From a virus: DNA of 24,351 bases. Below are positions 1-15,983 of this stretch, piece by piece; the stretch's first letter is position 1; the number at the start of each line of letters is the position of its first letter. The stretch is taken from positions 1 through 24,351 of the IMG/VR virus record IMGVR_UViG_3300010883_000450. One strand, 5' to 3'. The position numbers were made by a program, and so were the translations under genes. The notes under the pieces are model-generated. The model searched no databases. It worked only from the letters and a program-made list of their open reading frames with translations, and was not told the origin of the DNA.

Positions 1-2775
1 ATCTAGATAGAATTTGTAAGTACTACCTGCACTAAATGAAACAGTATCAAAATCTAATACAGTTGCTCCACCATCTTGAGTAAACTTAATTGCACCACCA
101 TTATCTACAAGTGTAAATTCATCACCAGCTAAATCAGCTAAGACGTTTACAGTTATAGTTCCAGATACAGAACCAAAAGAATTTGCTTTGGTTACATTTA
201 TTGTATGAGAAACAGATTGACCATAACCATTACTTATATCTTCAACCGTACCTATAATAGAATAACCATTGTCAGAGTAAGGATTGTTTGATAAAGTATA
301 AGTTGAAGTGTCTCCTGCTGGCTTGTATTGTATATTCAACACGCTACCTTCTTGAACACTATATGTAGCGTTAGTAAAGGATGGTAAGTAATTAGAATCA
401 ACATCAGTAGCTTGAATATTCCAAACTACACTTTCATGATTAGACCAGAGACCATTCAGTGGAGCACTACTTCCTGACATTACACCATTTGTATTTGGCA
501 TATACCAAGTAGTATTAGTTAGATCGTCTACATACGTGTGTGCATGAGCAGATCCACTTCCACCTTCAGTTGTATCAACTAAGTTAGCATCAGATTCGGA
601 CTTGAATAAAGGGTAATGAAATACTCCATCAGGACTTTCTACGTAATAGAATGCAGCAGTCAATCCACTAGGGATGTCTACATTAGCATCAATACCTACT
701 TCACTTTCTAAGAAGGTCTTATACTGTACTAGATTCATTGCAAATGCAGAGTTGATCGTGTCATTCATTGTAGCTAAATTACTTCCAGCTACTACTCCAT
801 CCACATATACATTTCCTAGCGTAAGACCTCTTAACTGGATCTTGTCACTATTTCTTTGTATAATATCTACTTTACTTCCGTTTATAATAGATTGCAATTC
901 ATTAACACTGTATACATTTATTACGTTTCCAGTTAAATGCTCCTTAAGAGATATGGATTTCTTTAATGTATCAAGTACTATGTTTACAGAAGGTACAGAC
1001 ATAACGTGATTACTAAAAGGTAGCTCACTGTAGTTACCAGCTAAAGGAGACTTTACAGCACCTAAAGCAACAGACTGATAAGAGTTATCTCCAAGAGATA
1101 GCCTTAAGTTAGTCACGTCTACTTCTGACAAGTCTATAGCATAATCCTGCCCAATAAATCCAACATCATCAACTTTGATAATATTCTTATCGTTGTCAGC
1201 TAACTGTCCTACAGCACTACTAATTAAGAATCCAATCTTTTCAGTATTAGAGCCTAATCCAGTGTAGTGAACTTGAGTATCTAAAACCTCAGCTATAAAT
1301 CTAAACGCAGGGTTTACAGTTATTTGAGTATTTAGTAAGCTATATGCTTCATTGATCTGTATAGACGCTTTAGCATCACCAGTATTACCGATACCATTAT
1401 ATTGAGATCTGTTATTGTCGTAAAGACCACAATCTCTTAATGTAGTGTTAGCAGAACCCCATGCACAAAAACCAGCATTCCAGTTTCCATTCACTTCGTT
1501 TTGACTAAACTTATTGTTAATACCACCAATAACTAGTAATCCGTTATTAGCATTGTATCCTGACACGTTCATTGTAACAGTTACGTTTTGACATCCACCT
1601 AAAGAACCTACAGATAAGTATATACCTGACTCTATATTTTGAGTAGACTGGTTACGAGATATAACACCCCCACCATTAACACCACAATCAGATACACGAA
1701 GACCTCTAAGGTTATTAGTAACTGTATTACCAGTAATTAATAATTGAGTAGCCTCTTCTATTCTAGTAGCACCTCCATTGGAAGCGTTAGGACCAGCATA
1801 GAAAGCCTGTAATGATGTATTAGTAGAATCATATCCAAGAAGTCCTGAAACTGAACTAGGAAGCACCGTATGAAGTCCTAATCCATTCCATCCATTGTTC
1901 TTTATAGTACAATCAGATATAGTAACTTTAGCTGTTTTCTTTATATGTAGAGCGTATCCTCCAGCATTCTTAAATATGATATTGTCAAATTTAAAGCTTT
2001 GTGTGTTATCTCCATTATAGTAAAATATATCACCATTACTAGTTTGGTATGTTGCGTATTTAATCTCAGAACCTTCAGATCCGTAGAAATAAAGGGAGTG
2101 AGGTAAAGTTATTGCACCACTTACGATTGTTTGACCTTTAACAAGTATAGAGTTCCCTTCACTTGAAGCAGCAATAGCTATAGCTAAATCATTGTAAGGA
2201 TATATAGAACTACCATTTCTTATAGTTCCAGTGTATCCGCCATCAACGTGAATGTCGTATTGATCCAGAGCAGAGTCTTCTAACTCTTGAACGGTAGCAT
2301 TCTTATTTTGAATACGTTCCCATACTGTATTAGTTTCTGAATATTTTATAATATCATTAACCTTATACTCTACAGAATTTATAGTTCCCTCAGTACCAAT
2401 ATAGTACCAGTCACCATTAGCAGGTCCTACATAAGCAGGATCTAGTTCTATAGAAGCATCGAATACACCCTTGTATCCTACATTAATGTCATCAGGAGCA
2501 GCTACGTTACCTTTAAGGGTTATGTAATCAGCAGTAGCTTGAGCAGTAGCAAAAGCAACTCCATCTTCATCTCTAAACTCAGTAAAAGGTATTCTAAAGA
2601 ACTCATATTTATTGACACCAGACTGAGCAGTCTTAATATCATTTATGACATTTACTGCACTGGAATCTATAGGATCTACTTGACCACTTAGACATGAGTT
2701 CCAATATACTGGGTTAGAACTTCCTTGAAATTCGATACAATTCCCAGCTTCATTTCTTTTTATAGTAATTGCCAT
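1..2775 (-). CDS. Large tail fibre or tailspike with beta-helix domain (C-terminus cut off by window edge)
   Basis: An open frame starts at the ATG at 2775 and runs without a stop to base 1, giving at least 925 residues; the C-terminus lies outside the window. The N-terminus (MAITIKRNEAGN) carries a VDPIDSS segment that resembles the STDPIDS segment of the next gene upstream. About residues 175-505 are rich in short turns with N, G and hydrophobic spacing (for example LLITGNTVTNN, GLRVSDCGVNGGG), typical of a right-handed parallel beta-helix as found in pectate-lyase-like tailspikes. Residues 740-762 hold an H-x-H pair (H744, H746) followed by WYMPN, like the tip regions of some marine phage fibres. 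About 795-880 looks cadherin/Ig-like (TYSVQEGS at its start). The gene follows 2780-3688 by 4 bp. Expected role: host surface binding, possibly with polysaccharide cleavage; no catalytic residues could be assigned. Confidence 0.75.
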   Translation of the reverse strand, partial: MAITIKRNEAGNCIEFQGSSNPVYWNSCLSGQVDPIDSSAVNVINDIKTAQSGVNKYEFFRIPFTEFRDEDGVAFATAQATADYITLKGNVAAPDDINVGYKGVFDASIELDPAYVGPANGDWYYIGTEGTINSVEYKVNDIIKYSETNTVWERIQNKNATVQELEDSALDQYDIHVDGGYTGTIRNGSSIYPYNDLAIAIAASSEGNSILVKGQTIVSGAITLPHSLYFYGSEGSEIKYATYQTSNGDIFYYNGDNTQSFKFDNIIFKNAGGYALHIKKTAKVTISDCTIKNNGWNGLGLHTVLPSSVSGLLGYDSTNTSLQAFYAGPNASNGGATRIEEATQLLITGNTVTNNLRGLRVSDCGVNGGGVISRNQSTQNIESGIYLSVGSLGGCQNVTVTMNVSGYNANNGLLVIGGINNKFSQNEVNGNWNAGFCAWGSANTTLRDCGLYDNNRSQYNGIGNTGDAKASIQINEAYSLLNTQITVNPAFRFIAEVLDTQVHYTGLGSNTEKIGFLISSAVGQLADNDKNIIKVDDVGFIGQDYAIDLSEVDVTNLRLSLGDNSYQSVALGAVKSPLAGNYSELPFSNHVMSVPSVNIVLDTLKKSISLKEHLTGNVINVYSVNELQSIINGSKVDIIQRNSDKIQLRGLTLGNVYVDGVVAGSNLATMNDTINSAFAMNLVQYKTFLESEVGIDANVDIPSGLTAAFYYVESPDGVFHYPLFKSESDANLVDTTEGGSGSAHAHTYVDDLTNTTWYMPNTNGVMSGSSAPLNGLWSNHESVVWNIQATDVDSNYLPSFTNATYSVQEGSVLNIQYKPAGDTSTYTLSNNPYSDNGYSIIGTVEDISNGYGQSVSHTINVTKANSFGSVSGTITVNVLADLAGDEFTLVDNGGAIKFTQDGGATVLDFDTVSFSAGSTYKFYLD

Positions 2776-2779
2776 CTTG

Positions 2780-3688
2780 TTATCTTATTATTGTTATTAA
2801 TAAACCTAAAGGTTGAATTATAACTTGGTTATCACTTTTAATAGCTGGTAACGTTAAAGCGTTAACATCCTCGTTAGAAGTAATCCAAGCTGAAATTTCA
2901 ACTCTATTTAAGTATGTGTTACCAACAGTACCTGTTCCGTAGAATATAGGTTGAGTGGTTAGTGGAAACGTAGAAGTAATATCGTTATTAGCATTTCTAT
3001 TTGAATACCAAAGAGCAGGCTCAACAGTAGTGTTGGCTATCTGAGGTATAATATTAAAATCAAAACGTACTCTTAGTTGATCACCATATCTACAATCACT
3101 TAAATCTATACGACCAGTACTACCTTCAAATCCAGTAGAACCATTAGCATCATAATTGTCATTGTACACGTAGTTGTAATCTACTAAAGAATCAACTCCT
3201 TCGGGTAGGTTAGCACCTTGAAATAAACCTATACCAGCGTTACCAGTTGGAGTAGGTACTGTCCAATAAGGATTATCTACGGCAGTATGAACTGTAGGAT
3301 CTAATGATAGAACCTTAAAGTTTCCAGCAGCAACATCAGTAGTTGAGTATACAATACCACCAGAAGCTTCCCAGTTGTAGTTGTTAGATGCAGGCTTACC
3401 AGCAAAAGCACTAGTACGACTATATCCAGACTCACCATCTTTAGGTACTGTGTCAAGTGTTAAGAAATCTCCTTGTATAGCGTCTGTAATGTTTACAAAA
3501 TTAGAATCCGCTACACCACCTTGCAGTATAAAAACCTTTTGTTCAGATACAACGTATGTTTGTAGTCCCTCATAACGAGCAGCAGCAGGTATAGCATTTC
3601 TAGTAGCTAGATCAGCACATACGAGTCTTGAGTCGATAGGGTCTGTTGACTGGACTCTAAATCCAGATAGTATATCATTGTATGCCAT
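2780..3688 (-). CDS. Tail fibre / receptor-binding type structural protein
   Basis: A 302-residue protein. Residues 15-50 (STDPIDSRLVCADLATRNAI and the RYEGLQTYVV segment after it) match a short module common at the start of phage fibre proteins, in which a shaft attachment piece is followed by a small beta-domain (VFILQGG). The rest is beta-rich, and the C-terminal third (LRVRFDFNIIPQI, then LNRVEISAWIT and LLITIIR at the end) looks like a compact beta-sandwich such as a fibre head. There is no signal peptide and no catalytic motif. The gene sits between the putative glycosyltransferase (6 bp upstream) and the large beta-helix fibre (4 bp downstream), so all three are probably translated from one message. 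Role as a minor adhesin is inferred from composition and position. Confidence 0.6.
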   Translation of the reverse strand: MAYNDILSGFRVQSTDPIDSRLVCADLATRNAIPAAARYEGLQTYVVSEQKVFILQGGVADSNFVNITDAIQGDFLTLDTVPKDGESGYSRTSAFAGKPASNNYNWEASGGIVYSTTDVAAGNFKVLSLDPTVHTAVDNPYWTVPTPTGNAGIGLFQGANLPEGVDSLVDYNYVYNDNYDANGSTGFEGSTGRIDLSDCRYGDQLRVRFDFNIIPQIANTTVEPALWYSNRNANNDITSTFPLTTQPIFYGTGTVGNTYLNRVEISAWITSNEDVNALTLPAIKSDNQVIIQPLGLLITIIR

Positions 3689-3694
3689 AATTAA

Positions 3695-4597
3695 TTATTT
3701 TTTATAATGTCGATACATACCTGCAAAGTGATCTCTCCTCTCTTCGATATAATCTAGATACATAGTCATCTTTGACTTCCAGTCTTTATCGACTCTAGGG
3801 TTAAACACTCCACTATGGAATGAACTTAAAATTTTATTCAATTGAGGTATTCTAGCCTCTTTAGGTGTTCTTAGGATATGACTGTTATAATGCCAGAATC
3901 CAGCTTTATAATGCTGACCTAACTTATCTATAACATCTATGTCTTTTCCTAGCATAGCTGCATAAAGCATAGACTCACTATAATGAGTACTATATACTTT
4001 TTTACATCCAGATAGGAACTGATATAAATCATCATCTCTATCCAATACATTCACTTCTCCGCACTTGTCTTTAAGCATACCTACATATTCGTGAGTAGTT
4101 AAAGGATGTGGTTTTATAAATGCATTCTCAGTCTCACATATCTCGATCATCTTTTGTATATCTAAAACTTGTAAGAATTTATTAGTTCCTACAGGTACTA
4201 GTAATGAATCTCTAACCTTTTTACGTGAACTTTTTCTATCTGAATACTTGTTAGCTTGTTTATTTAATACGATCTGTTGATAGTACTTATCCCATGCCAT
4301 AGAAGGTTCAGGACTAAGTAAGCTATCCATAATCATATCTCTTCTTAAATCATTATTCAAGGGAGCTACGATAAAGTTAGTTGCGTATTCGGTATAACCT
4401 AACGTCTCCCATTCAGGATACTGAGACGCTGTAACGTCATAAGAGTGATCAATACCTCTCTTAATACATTCGTCTACAAAGAACTCCTCTACTGGCTTTA
4501 AATCGCCTAAGAACTTATTCTTTTGTAGTGTTGGACCTATTCTTTTTATCTGTTCCTTAATGTTGAACATCTCTAAGCGTTCTTTCTTTGTATCCAT
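3695..4597 (-). CDS. Putative GT-B-like glycosyltransferase (capsule/polysaccharide type) within the fibre module
   Basis: A 300-residue soluble protein that is not Thr-rich, beta-repeat or fibre-like, unlike its neighbours. The C-terminal half resembles the nucleotide-sugar-binding half of capsule-type transferases (Kdo-, sialic-acid- or polyol-phosphate-transferring GT-B families). A strand LLVPVG is at 132-137, IKPHP at 161-165 matches the characteristic K-P-H-P loop, and STHYSESMLYAAMLGKDI (203-220) matches the usual Ser-rich loop, helix and G-K segment. The acidic residue normally found in that helix (EA) is replaced by YA, a deviation that lowers confidence. The N-terminal 100 residues are not recognised. 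The start is 4 bp after the stop of the Thr-rich gene, suggesting coupled translation. It could glycosylate a virion protein or act on host surface sugars; a non-enzymatic relative is possible. Confidence 0.45.
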   Translation of the reverse strand: MDTKKERLEMFNIKEQIKRIGPTLQKNKFLGDLKPVEEFFVDECIKRGIDHSYDVTASQYPEWETLGYTEYATNFIVAPLNNDLRRDMIMDSLLSPEPSMAWDKYYQQIVLNKQANKYSDRKSSRKKVRDSLLVPVGTNKFLQVLDIQKMIEICETENAFIKPHPLTTHEYVGMLKDKCGEVNVLDRDDDLYQFLSGCKKVYSTHYSESMLYAAMLGKDIDVIDKLGQHYKAGFWHYNSHILRTPKEARIPQLNKILSSFHSGVFNPRVDKDWKSKMTMYLDYIEERRDHFAGMYRHYKK

Positions 4598-4601
4598 TTC
4601 T

Positions 4602-5216
4602 TTATATAGTTGTATAAAAGCTTTTAGAAATCATAGTAACCCATGATGTCGGATAAGCTGTGTTAGTATTAAAAGTTGTGTTCTTTAATGTGTCCTTCAA
4701 TGTAGTAGTTCCGTATGCAGTCAAAAAGTCAGTGTTTATGGATGCAAGCGTATCAAAGCTAGTACTGTATTGAGTTACTTTTGTTGTATTAGTGCTTATA
4801 GTAGATGTTGTATCGAAAGCAGTATTAGTCAAAGTACTTGTTACGTTACTAGTATTAAATGAACTTGTAGTAGCATAAACAGTTTGAAATAATGTATTTG
4901 TATCGTATACTGTACTCTGAGTTGTATCTACTGAAAGCGATGTATTGTAAGAAGTTGTAAATGGACTACTAGTTGCATGACTAGTTACTCCACTGTAATA
5001 CGTTCCAAAATACGAATAGTAAGCCGTACCGAAAGCTGTAGTATAACTTACAGCAGTTGCGTAGGATGTACTATAACTAGCAGAAGTAACATGACTAGTA
5101 TTCCGAGAGCCTGCCGTATCGTACGTCGTATTGAAAGTAGTACTAAAAGTAGTTATGTGACTAGTATTCGCATTCTCTAAAGTACTCCTTGAGGTTGATC
5201 TATTAGTAAATCCCAT
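4602..5216 (-). CDS. Thr-rich decapeptide-repeat protein, copy A
   Basis: A 204-residue low-complexity protein with about 60 Thr and 33 Ser, so nearly half the residues carry a hydroxyl group. Residues 91-190 form ten decapeptides in exact register: Thr is at repeat position 2 in nine of ten and at position 6 in eight of ten, with an aromatic residue often at position 4. The core is [N/S]-T-x-[F/Y]-x-T plus four variable residues (examples NTAFDT, STSFDT, NTDFLT). Three more units in another register occupy 39-68 (NTSHVT, STSYAT, TTAFGT). There is no signal peptide, Cys or membrane segment. It lies 21 bp after the paralogous gene 5238-5885 and 4 bp before the putative glycosyltransferase. I infer an elongated beta-structured fibre or decoration protein. 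Function is unknown; similar Thr-rich repeats occur in other marine phage virion proteins, to my knowledge without an assigned role. Confidence 0.7.
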   Translation of the reverse strand: MGFTNRSTSRSTLENANTSHITTFSTTFNTTYDTAGSRNTSHVTSASYSTSYATAVSYTTAFGTAYYSYFGTYYSGVTSHATSSPFTTSYNTSLSVDTTQSTVYDTNTLFQTVYATTSSFNTSNVTSTLTNTAFDTTSTISTNTTKVTQYSTSFDTLASINTDFLTAYGTTTLKDTLKNTTFNTNTAYPTSWVTMISKSFYTTI

Positions 5217-5237
5217 GTCTGTTTATTTTAATTGTTA

Positions 5238-5885
5238 TTAGAACATTCCTCCTCCACCACCACTAAACCAGTACGTAAGAAAAGTAGTGCTAGTAGAATG
5301 TCCAGTAGGGTAATAAGTAGAGTACGCTCCTCCTTGAGTAGTTGAACGAGACGTGCTATTAGATATTGCCGTAGAATATGATGTAGTTACACTAGCAGAC
5401 GTCGCATGACTTGTAGTTTGACTTCCAGAAGTAGAACGACTAGTGTTCTTAGATGTGTATACGTAAGTTGTGTGACCTTTAGCTGTGTAATAAGCTGTAG
5501 TGTAAGCTGTGCTTGTTGCGTGAGAAGTACCGAAAGTTGTAGTGTAAGCTACATCTGTCAAGTTACTAGTGGATAGTATACTTGCAGTTTCGTGATTCGT
5601 ATTGAAACTAGAACTAGTTAGGTACGTAGTATCGTAACTTGTTAATGTGTTATCGGAAGTACCAAAGGTCGTTAAAGTATCAAAAGCGGTTAAAGTGTTC
5701 ACGTCATATAAAGAGCTTGTCGATATAGTTGTGTCAACACTAAGGTTTGTAGATACGTCGTAAGTAGTACTAGCTAGCGTAGACTTTAAAGTATTATAAC
5801 TATAACTTGTAGACACAAGATTAGTAGTGTTAATAGTTAAAGCTGACAGCCATGAGTAAACCTTTGCAAATCCTGGATTTTTCAT
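5238..5885 (-). CDS. Thr-rich decapeptide-repeat protein with Gly-rich C-terminus, copy B
   Basis: A 215-residue paralogue of the next gene (4602-5216), with about 56 Thr. Residues 21-120 are ten decapeptides in perfect register: Thr occupies repeat position 6 in all ten, and position 10 in the six units of 61-120 (for example LTSYDT, LTTFGT). The register then shifts, and residues 147-182 hold another run of decapeptides (NTSRSTSGSQ, TTSHATSASV). The protein ends in FSGGGGGMF, a glycine run closed by an aromatic residue, which copy A lacks. The N-terminus (MKNPGFAKVYSWL) is the only non-repetitive part and may be the virion anchor. The stop of the upstream gene at 5887 lies one base before this start (TAATATG on the minus strand), pointing to coupled translation. 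Role as a fibre or surface decoration is inferred. Confidence 0.7.
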   Translation of the reverse strand: MKNPGFAKVYSWLSALTINTTNLVSTSYSYNTLKSTLASTTYDVSTNLSVDTTISTSSLYDVNTLTAFDTLTTFGTSDNTLTSYDTTYLTSSSFNTNHETASILSTSNLTDVAYTTTFGTSHATSTAYTTAYYTAKGHTTYVYTSKNTSRSTSGSQTTSHATSASVTTSYSTAISNSTSRSTTQGGAYSTYYPTGHSTSTTFLTYWFSGGGGGMF

Positions 5886-5886
5886 A

Positions 5887-6249
5887 TTAGGTAAAGTTTC
5901 CTATGTAGTTAGTTAATATCGTTGTGCTGTTTACTATGTAGTAAGACATCATTGCTGTATTTCCAGAAGTGTTATTCCAGATAGCTGTATCGCCATTAGG
6001 AGTCTTAAACTCACTAGGCATTGTTGGTGTTGAGGTTGTTCCTGAATTAGTAATAACTAATACTCCAGACTTACCTTCGTTACCAGATATGTTTGACAAG
6101 GATAAGCTCCATGCTCCAGTAACTGATAAGTGATGGTTGACTGCAGCAGAGAAGTCAATAGAACCTGTTGTAATAGATTCCACACCCATAGAAGTTGCAT
6201 CTACATCTTCTTGAGTAACCTTTGGAAATATGTCTAATATATTTGGCAT
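5887..6249 (-). CDS. Small virion-associated protein with MPN-x3-IFP N-terminus
   Basis: A 120-residue protein whose first 16 residues (MPNILDIFPKVTQEDV) match the N-terminus of the upstream gene product (MPNLKTIFPGLDPNDF), with MPN, IFP and an Asp in the same places. The remainder (about 25-120) is beta-rich with Ser/Thr/Asn and ends YIVNSTTILTNYIGNFT; the segment LSVTGAWSLSLSNISG suggests a small surface domain like those at the ends of phage tail proteins. It follows a UUCG terminator-like hairpin, so it is either read through at a lower level or driven by an unrecognised promoter. No enzyme motif is visible. I infer a small attachment or decoration protein that docks through the shared N-terminal peptide. 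Confidence 0.5.
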   Translation of the reverse strand: MPNILDIFPKVTQEDVDATSMGVESITTGSIDFSAAVNHHLSVTGAWSLSLSNISGNEGKSGVLVITNSGTTSTPTMPSEFKTPNGDTAIWNNTSGNTAMMSYYIVNSTTILTNYIGNFT

Positions 6250-6268: not shown

Positions 6269-6311
6269 AATAATATAGCCCCCTCCGAAGAGGGAGCATA
6301 TATATAAGTTT
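6269..6311 (-). repeat. Intergenic direct repeat, copy 1 (carries a terminator hairpin)
   Basis: This 43-nt block between two structural genes is identical to 9484-9524 except for one extra TA pair in the A/T-rich flank. It includes the whole hairpin at 6278-6297 and its flanks. Such a close copy in non-coding DNA indicates a recent duplication or strong conservation of the regulatory element. Confidence 0.85.
6278..6297 (-). terminator. Hairpin with cUUCGg tetraloop, terminator-like
   Basis: Read on the minus strand this is GCTCCCTC-TTCG-GAGGGGGC: an 8-bp stem with one U-G wobble and a UUCG loop closed by C-G. On the plus strand the wobble becomes an A-C mismatch and the loop is CGAA, so the structure is built for minus-strand RNA. 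It lies 18 bp after the stop of 6315-7163 and is followed by TATATTATTATTAA instead of a clean U run, so termination may be partial. Confidence 0.75.
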
Positions 6312-14459: not shown

Positions 14460-15983
14460 TTAAAATCCACCACCACCTGAACCAGCAGAAGTATTTGTGG
14501 TATCTAAAGTTGTAGATCCACTCTTCAATGATATAGCTGCAGCAGCACTACCAAATCCTGAATAACTTACAGTTACAGTAGCATTACCAGTACCAGAAGT
14601 AGGAGATACGCTAATAGCGGAAGCTCCACTCTTAACTAATTGCCATGTTCCATTACTAGGAGTAACAGTAACACTCATAGCTTGACTCTGAGAACCAGTA
14701 TTTGCAGTGAATGAAATAGCAGAAGGGAACGTACTACCAGAAGTAGCAGCAGTAGAAGTCGAAGGGCAAGCACCACTAATAGTAATAGTATAAGTAGTAT
14801 TAGTAGCTGGATAAGATCCAGTTATCAATCTACTCCACGTATTAAATGTGGTATTTACGCTAGGAGTTCCAGCTCCAAGTCCGCTAGGAGTTATACTAGT
14901 AGTAGCATTACTAGCAGCAGTAAATGCAAATCCAGTAGATCCATTAGCTTGAGCATATAAAGAGAAAGCATCTCCAACAACACCAGTCTTAGGACTAACA
15001 CTACTAACAGTTGCACCACTAATACTATCAACGATATTAAACGTTACAGTACTAGTTACAACAGTTGCAGGTTGTGTTACAGTTCTAGTTATATTCGTAG
15101 TAGTACCAAATCCAGCATACCCAGCAGGTATAGTGACCTGTACAGTTACATCTCTAGACGTGTCAGAAGTTACAGTTCCAAATCCACCAGTTAACATAGT
15201 TACAGGATATCCATTACCAGCAGTAGCTGTAGGATTACCAGAAGCAGGTACATTAACAACACCAGACCAATTAGCATCACCAAAAGCAGGTAATGAAGCA
15301 GGAACGGTTACGTTAACAGATCCACTAAATGTAGTTCCACTATTGAAGTAAGCACTTCCAGGTCTATACGTAAAAGTTATAGTTTCAGTTCTTGCACTAG
15401 ATTGTAATGCGAAAGAAGATGGACTAATACTTAAAGCCTGTATAGTAGCTCCAGAAGCAGTTACCGAAGTAGTACCTACAGAACTACAAGATCCGCTAAA
15501 TGTAGCGTCTCCACTGTAAAATATAGCTCCTCCAGTACCAGTAGCACTTTGAGTTCTATAAAAAGGACCAGCACCTGTAGAGGCTCTAGCAGTTGTAGTT
15601 GTAGAAACATCAGTTCCATCAATAGCATTGGCAGGATTAACACAAGTTCCAGCAACACCGTTTCCAGTTGGGGCTGTTACTAATTCACAAGTCCTAGTAG
15701 TAGTATAAACATAATTACTATAATTAGTCTGTATATAATACGTTTGAGTTTGTGTAAATGCAGTTCCATTTGAATAAGCTCCAGTACTAGGGCTATATAC
15801 GGATACACCATATTCCGAAGTGGATACAGCAGTACCTCCTGTTGTTACAGTAGAACCAGCATTATAAGCAGCAGTTCCATCTACATCAGCTTCACCCCAT
15901 TGTTGTACGCCGCCCTTCCAGCCAGCCATATCTACTCCGCCTCGCCTAAAGGTCATGGATACATTGTTTTTAGTTCCAGCCAT
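14460..15983 (-). CDS. Ser/Thr/Gly-rich virion protein with Ig-like and BACON-like domains
   Basis: A 507-residue protein of almost pure beta and low-complexity composition. Residues 1-30 (MTFRRGGVDMAGWKGGVQQW at 10-29) are distinctive and may anchor it. Cys99, Cys114 and Cys166 could form a disulfide, uncommon in cytoplasm-assembled virions. Residues about 308-405 (TFNIVDSISGATVSSVSP at the start) repeat the Ig-like module found four times in the neighbouring 1376-residue protein. Residues 421-495 look like a BACON domain, with SVTVTPSNGTWQLV, AISVSPTSGTGNATVTVSYS and a final SLKSGSTTL strand. The protein ends GSGGGGF. It is the last gene of the tail operon, 21 bp after the baseplate protein, and its leader is identical to that gene's leader. 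Likely role: a tail-tip or capsid surface protein that binds glycans; the target is unknown. Confidence 0.55.
   Translation of the reverse strand: MAGTKNNVSMTFRRGGVDMAGWKGGVQQWGEADVDGTAAYNAGSTVTTGGTAVSTSEYGVSVYSPSTGAYSNGTAFTQTQTYYIQTNYSNYVYTTTRTCELVTAPTGNGVAGTCVNPANAIDGTDVSTTTTARASTGAGPFYRTQSATGTGGAIFYSGDATFSGSCSSVGTTSVTASGATIQALSISPSSFALQSSARTETITFTYRPGSAYFNSGTTFSGSVNVTVPASLPAFGDANWSGVVNVPASGNPTATAGNGYPVTMLTGGFGTVTSDTSRDVTVQVTIPAGYAGFGTTTNITRTVTQPATVVTSTVTFNIVDSISGATVSSVSPKTGVVGDAFSLYAQANGSTGFAFTAASNATTSITPSGLGAGTPSVNTTFNTWSRLITGSYPATNTTYTITISGACPSTSTAATSGSTFPSAISFTANTGSQSQAMSVTVTPSNGTWQLVKSGASAISVSPTSGTGNATVTVSYSGFGSAAAAISLKSGSTTLDTTNTSAGSGGGGF

Follow-up and report, generated by a model that had tools for sequence, protein, structure and literature searches.

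A threonine-rich repeat gene linked to a Kdo-transferase-fold enzyme gene across tailed phages: a candidate fibre-glycosylation cassette

The window analysed here, a complete IMG/VR virus record of 24,351 bases that is probably a fragment, carries on its minus strand a compact run of genes that encode, in transcription order, a 120-aa protein, two threonine-rich repeat proteins (A and B), a 300-aa protein, a 302-aa tail-type protein, and a beta-helix fibre. The remaining genes include those for the terminase, portal, head protease, major head protein, head-tail adaptor, and major tail protein; the best matches of the terminase are from Bacteroides and Flavobacterium phages (33-36% identity), and a megablast search of the window against phages yielded no match. 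The gene for the 120-aa protein (5887..6249) lies one base upstream of repeat A, the place that is occupied by a tail-fibre gene in Caulobacter phages Lullwater and Cr30. The fibres of these two phages are related to each other at their C-termini (1e-13), and sequence similarity between them and the 120-aa protein is undetectable. Repeat A (5238..5885; 215 aa) and repeat B (4602..5216; 204 aa) are followed by the gene for the 300-aa protein (3695..4597). Six bases further downstream lies the gene for the 302-aa protein (2780..3688), a tail or virion protein judging by the match of its N-terminal 64 aa to phrog_25379 ('tail protein', 5.2e-7), and then, a beta-helix fibre or tailspike-type protein (1..2775; PF13229 Beta_helix, 9.6e-12) that runs off the contig. 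By their coordinates, the stop codon of repeat B and the ATG of the 300-aa protein are separated by only 4 bases (4598..4601), so that the two genes are likely to be co-expressed; in Lullwater, Cr30, and loci L111 and L094, the spacing is comparably tight, or the genes overlap. A GC-rich hairpin, GCTCCCTCTTCGGAGGGGGC, is located at 6278-6297 on the minus strand, just ahead of the cassette's first gene, that of the 120-aa protein, and may separate the cassette from the upstream genes.

The original prediction, made from the sequence of the window, of two paralogous Thr-rich proteins followed after 4 bases by a 300-residue protein proved correct to the residue. Threonine makes up 26.0% of repeat A and 29.4% of repeat B, with serine contributing another 18.6% and 16.2%, respectively, and the two proteins align with 41% identity. 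In both, threonines recur at distances of 4, 10, 14, and 20 in excess of composition-preserving shuffles (z 2.8-5.8; 3.6-5.8 at distances 4 and 10), and therefore, the regular decapeptide that had been noticed earlier is real and represents an alternation of 4 and 6 residues. The residue two positions before the threonine is most often Phe or Tyr, and the numbers of N-x-S/T sequons in repeats A and B do not differ notably from those in shuffles (9 vs 6.7; 5 vs 5.3). In other phages, the period varies. L111 and L094 have a decapeptide unit, for example STTTTYQTSH (at spacing 10, z is 8.6 and 13.7), a period of 4 characterises the repeats of Lullwater, BL199, KVP40, and L014, and further metagenomic repeats show periods of 6, 10, 16, or 22. 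The dominant spacings across the family are mostly even, but even spacing was rejected as a family-wide rule, since the parity test exceeded z 3 in fewer than half of the cases (14 of 31). The notion of a 'mucin-like' fibre is supported only in part, given that AlphaFold yields no confident fold for repeat A (pLDDT 28).

The N-terminal domains of the repeat proteins differ among phage groups: most metagenomic loci have 'MAIYVNDSGT...', KVP40-like phages 'GAISL..LRG', and L108 'PISFADVV', and none is obvious in the window. Such diversity is to be expected if one kind of repeat fibre sits on different virion sockets and, together with the gene context, it suggests that the repeat proteins are displayed on the virion as fibres. 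Repeat B is the presumed glycosylation acceptor, on account of its composition, T-T autocorrelation, and the linkage of repeat and enzyme genes in relatives that is described below; repeat A, similar to it in composition and periodicity, is the presumed second acceptor. The glycine-rich C-terminus of repeat A (GGGGGMF) resembles that of a 507-aa protein encoded at 14460-15983 (GSGGGGF), a different protein of virion type.

The 300-aa protein belongs to a family of 'unknown function' (phrog_26179/phrog_30602) and matches the phrog_26179 profile with 6.9e-29 over residues 13-289 of 300. A Pfam scan with this protein alone produced no match, and some members of the family show weak matches to Capsule_synth and Glyco_transf_52 (5e-4 to 6e-3, with Glyco_transf_52 at 5e-4) as well as a weak sequence match to KpsC over the region from the HP to the S/E motif. 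In an alignment of the window protein with 38 relatives that are 19-36% identical to it (n=39), D54, K117, Y118, G137, K162, H164, P165, T167, and G263 are invariant, so that the HP motif (H164, P165) is kept in 39/39 sequences; S207 is present in 38/39, and position 70 is acidic (Asp or Glu) in 35/39. The motif IKPHP at 161-165 and the Ser-rich loop at 203-218 (STHYSESMLYAAMLGK) lie exactly where they had been placed. The acidic residue that had been reported missing after this loop is, however, present: E208 opens the helix that follows, and the position is Glu in 37/39 sequences and Gln in 2/39.

The predicted structure of this enzyme (AlphaFold, pLDDT 89.9, pTM 0.88) contains a pair of Rossmann-like domains of the KpsC/WbbB type, as judged by VIA-align and Foldseek. 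The top Foldseek match in the PDB is WbbB with CMP-Kdo (5.1e-4), and VIA-align ranks 1-15 are all Kdo transferases (KpsC, WbbB, and KrkA; Z 7.9-10.0, with 200-232 residues aligned over model positions 3-290), followed by a polysialyltransferase at Z 7.8. These comparisons, with moderate Z of 8-10, support the assignment of the modelled fold to the Kdo-transferase branch of GT-B-like enzymes, in agreement with the GT-B fold originally anticipated. No Maf entry and no DNA glucosyltransferase appear among the best 50 structural matches listed, nor is there a Pfam match to the Maf family. In polysialyltransferase, the HP motif binds CMP-Neu5Ac (PMC2169525); Kdo transferases use a histidine to protonate the phosphate of CMP (PMC10148158). 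We infer from the modelled fold and the conserved residues that the 300-aa protein works like a CMP-sugar transferase of the Kdo-transferase fold.

The resemblance to the retaining beta-Kdo transferases KpsC (GT107), WbbB (GT99), and KrkA includes the closest PDB fold, the HP motif, and the weak match over the HP-to-S/E region, but identity is only 10-14%, and the phage enzyme lacks the QXXXD nucleophile motif; a Q...D pattern occurs nowhere in the window protein. The probable counterpart loop, matched by sequence and loop position rather than by superposition, reads G-[STH]-N, with position 139 being Asn in 37/39 sequences and Asp in 2/39. The invariant D54 is located in the N-terminal domain and compares with the general base of KpsC, Glu66, by domain only. 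Because QXXXD is absent, we regard the enzyme as a divergent relative that is not to be filed in GT99 or GT107, and to which the activity and stereochemistry of the retaining Kdo transferases are not transferable.

The repeat and the enzyme travel together. A tblastn search of isolated phages identified relatives of the enzyme in the Caulobacter podoviruses Lullwater, BL199, and Quill_5.2, Caulobacter phage Cr30, Vibrio phages of the KVP40 type, and Stenotrophomonas phage DLP_6; with the exception of DLP_6, each group has a Thr-rich ORF immediately upstream of the enzyme gene or one small gene away, and in the Caulobacter phages, a tail-fibre gene is found just upstream of the repeat. A DNA scan for the peptide IKPHP-x-T, with only AAA-coded lysine and blind to the repeat, added at least 93 family members in metagenomic viral contigs; a related-locus search of viral contigs with the window enzyme as the query found none. 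Short-peptide patterns, which reach close kin only, were run in two scans against about 85,000 genomes of bacteria and archaea and recovered no relatives of the enzyme.

An automatic test for a Thr-rich ORF within 1.5 kb was passed by 93 of 104 loci, and the 11 that did not pass all come with under 400 nt of sequence upstream. Among the 92 loci with at least 400 nt upstream, a Thr-rich repeat ORF detected by its Thr fraction (18-42% Thr, up to 1621 aa) adjoins the enzyme in 91, whereas among 267 control genes, all encoding 200 aa or more, 4 have a Thr-rich neighbour; in 90 of the 92, the ORF is no shorter than 100 aa and contains no less than 20% Thr (the repeat of L084 is at 18%). Many of these loci are related to one another, so that the raw counts overstate independence, and the safer figure comes from 18 dissimilar representatives, 17 of which possess the repeat (Fisher p about 1e-22). 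A reverse scan was confined to the main metagenomic repeat type, with its 48 conserved C-terminal residues as the query. It retained 80 of 237 loci and found the enzyme 89-198 nt downstream of the repeat in all 80; the forward and reverse sets share some contigs. In L014, the order is inverted, with the repeat downstream of the enzyme. The true exception is DLP_6 (L004, L011), where the enzyme gene lies near the genome end, no Thr-repeat protein is detectable in 20 kb of adjacent sequence, and which passes the automatic test only through short ORFs in the wrong frame. The co-occurrence in relatives that had been proposed as a check on the original prediction is thus apparent in both directions, and the linkage of the enzyme and the repeat is near-obligate across unrelated phages, recurring in genomes of podo-, myo-, and siphovirus type (Lullwater, Cr30, KVP40, and the window).

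Taken together, these observations make it fairly probable, in our estimation, that this siphovirus-type phage carries a self-contained cassette for fibre glycosylation, in which Thr-repeat virion fibres would be served by a soluble transferase that uses a host CMP-ulosonic sugar. The enzyme would bind the host-made CMP-activated ulosonate at K162-H164-P165, and D54 or a neighbouring acidic residue would activate a Ser/Thr hydroxyl of the repeat, so that the sugar is transferred to the Ser/Thr hydroxyls of the repeats in the cytoplasm of the infected cell, prior to assembly. With many repeat sites filled, the glycosylated fibre would be built into the virion as a densely decorated, negatively charged appendage. 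No CMP-sugar synthetase (PF02348) was detected in the 25 records searched, among which are five complete phages; this implies that the donor would come from the host. Nearly all LPS-bearing hosts make CMP-Kdo, and therefore, CMP-Kdo is the most general candidate; overall, the donor is probably a host CMP-sugar, with CMP-Kdo as the best guess and a CMP-nonulosonate as a possible alternative. The chemistry has a precedent in a Maf flagellin transferase that attaches Kdo to Ser/Thr in the E. coli cytoplasm, each site gaining 220 Da (PMC11339370).

The identity of the sugar is the point on which the most credible alternative diverges. The protein could be a genuine CMP-sugar glycosyltransferase, with the repeat as its partner, that draws on a host nonulosonic acid of the pseudaminic, legionaminic, or sialic type, or on another CMP sugar, rather than on Kdo; we consider this version unlikely, albeit far from negligible. 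The HP motif is shared with sialyltransferases (PMC2169525), a polysialyltransferase is the next fold match, Glyco_transf_52 is among the weak family matches, and in Caulobacter, which both Lullwater and Cr30 infect, flagellin is O-glycosylated by a cytoplasmic pathway (PMC7591256). However, the best 15 structural matches are all Kdo transferases. Moreover, nonulosonates are not universal among hosts, and the near-universal CMP-Kdo of LPS-bearing hosts better suits a family that is spread over many phage types.

The same linkage would be seen if the GT-fold protein were an assembly factor, a chaperone for the repeat fibre that attaches no sugar, and the loss of the retaining nucleophile motif is compatible with such a role. 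Many loci also encode, between the repeat and the enzyme, a coiled-coil ORF of about 45-73 aa, as might be the case for an assembly factor. This ORF is found in the metagenomic 'MAIYVNDSG' group (examples are L031, L017, L130, L032, L023, L036, and L101) and in KVP40-like phages (KVP40.0255, QD01_261; L003:4493-4708), and is possibly a chaperone or trimerisation partner; DLP_6 has a 57-aa coiled-coil-like ORF at the corresponding place, and the window, Lullwater, and Cr30 have none between the repeat and the enzyme. Yet the likely donor-site residues K162, H164, P165, and T167, along with D54, remain invariant down to 19% identity, which would be unusual for a scaffold that does not bind a nucleotide sugar, so that a pure chaperone appears quite improbable. 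Modification of a host surface glycan, as in seroconversion or superinfection exclusion, with the position next to the repeat being incidental, would fit the closest folds, which build capsule and O-antigen; the linkage to the repeat in both directions across phage types and the location within structural gene blocks make this highly improbable. The least credible reading, to which we assign almost no weight, is glycosylation of phage DNA: phage glycosyltransferases often modify DNA (PMC12619734), but here, the top fold matches are CMP-Kdo enzymes, the repeat gene to which the enzyme is linked belongs to the tail region, and the window shows no gene for base modification.

Adhesins paired with a glycosyltransferase of their own are already known from bacteria. 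Gram-positive serine-rich repeat adhesins have dedicated glycosyltransferases, and the phage cassette resembles them in combining a hydroxyl-rich, low-complexity adhesin with an adjoining enzyme; it differs in the fold branch of the enzyme and the donor, in the use of Thr instead of Ser, and in being phage-borne. With the flagellin O-glycosyltransferases Maf and FlmG, which place nonulosonic acids or Kdo on Ser/Thr, the proposed likeness would be the cytoplasmic transfer of a CMP-ulosonate to a filament protein by a dedicated enzyme, but no match of the phage enzyme to Maf was detected in the Pfam scans or among the best 50 structural matches, and the acceptor would be the phage repeat fibre. 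The acceptor of KpsC, WbbB, and KrkA is a glycan, whereas that of the phage enzyme, whose gene adjoins the Thr-repeat gene, would be a protein. Glycosylation of virion proteins as such is already known from mycobacteriophages (Freeman et al. 2023, as cited in PMC12619734); going by that citation, the acceptors there are the C-termini of capsid and tail tube subunits, in contrast to the long Thr-repeat proteins and linked Kdo-fold enzyme found here. Literature searches, to which subscription papers were largely inaccessible, revealed no description of such a phage cassette, in keeping with the earlier statement that no phage case was known. What appears to be new is the branch to which the enzyme belongs, the fibre built of Thr repeats, and their linkage in phages of different types.

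The recurrence of the pair suggests that unrelated tailed phages make and coat their own sugar-covered fibres. If so, phages would produce such fibres from host CMP-Kdo or a similar sugar, with a bearing on adsorption, host-surface binding, and virion recognition, and a protein O-glycosylating enzyme would join a fold that is known in the PDB from glycan-building Kdo transferases. More tentatively, and with considerable doubt, one could envisage a widespread, unrecognised class of phage appendages, namely fibres made of Thr repeats that reach about 1600 residues in length. Each would come with a dedicated, divergent enzyme of the Kdo-transferase fold, which would make an ulosonic-acid O-glycoprotein on the virion by a mechanism unlike the double displacement of the known Kdo transferases, and the cassette would be exchanged among podo-, sipho-, and myoviruses.

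The pair is present in the model phage KVP40 as well as in the metagenomic contigs, and yet, all its annotated members are hypothetical proteins. Caulobacter phage Lullwater and Vibrio phage KVP40 offer cultivable test systems, in which the mass signature would be increments of +220 Da. In KVP40-like phages, the enzyme gene is followed by genes for a conserved 210-aa protein with no significant Pfam match, a QueC-like protein, and a nicotinamide phosphoribosyltransferase, and by radical-SAM genes (L003:5542-10407, that is, KVP40.0257-0262; also L006, L007, and L136). The Thr-rich ORFs of Vibrio phages F86 and D479 (L007:3227-3784 and L136:2948-3460) are absent from the deposited annotation, which has short or antisense ORFs in their place. 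In Quill_5.2 (L009:2899-3453), the repeat ORF loses the Thr-repeat pattern near its C-terminus and stops early relative to Lullwater, in the manner of a frameshift.
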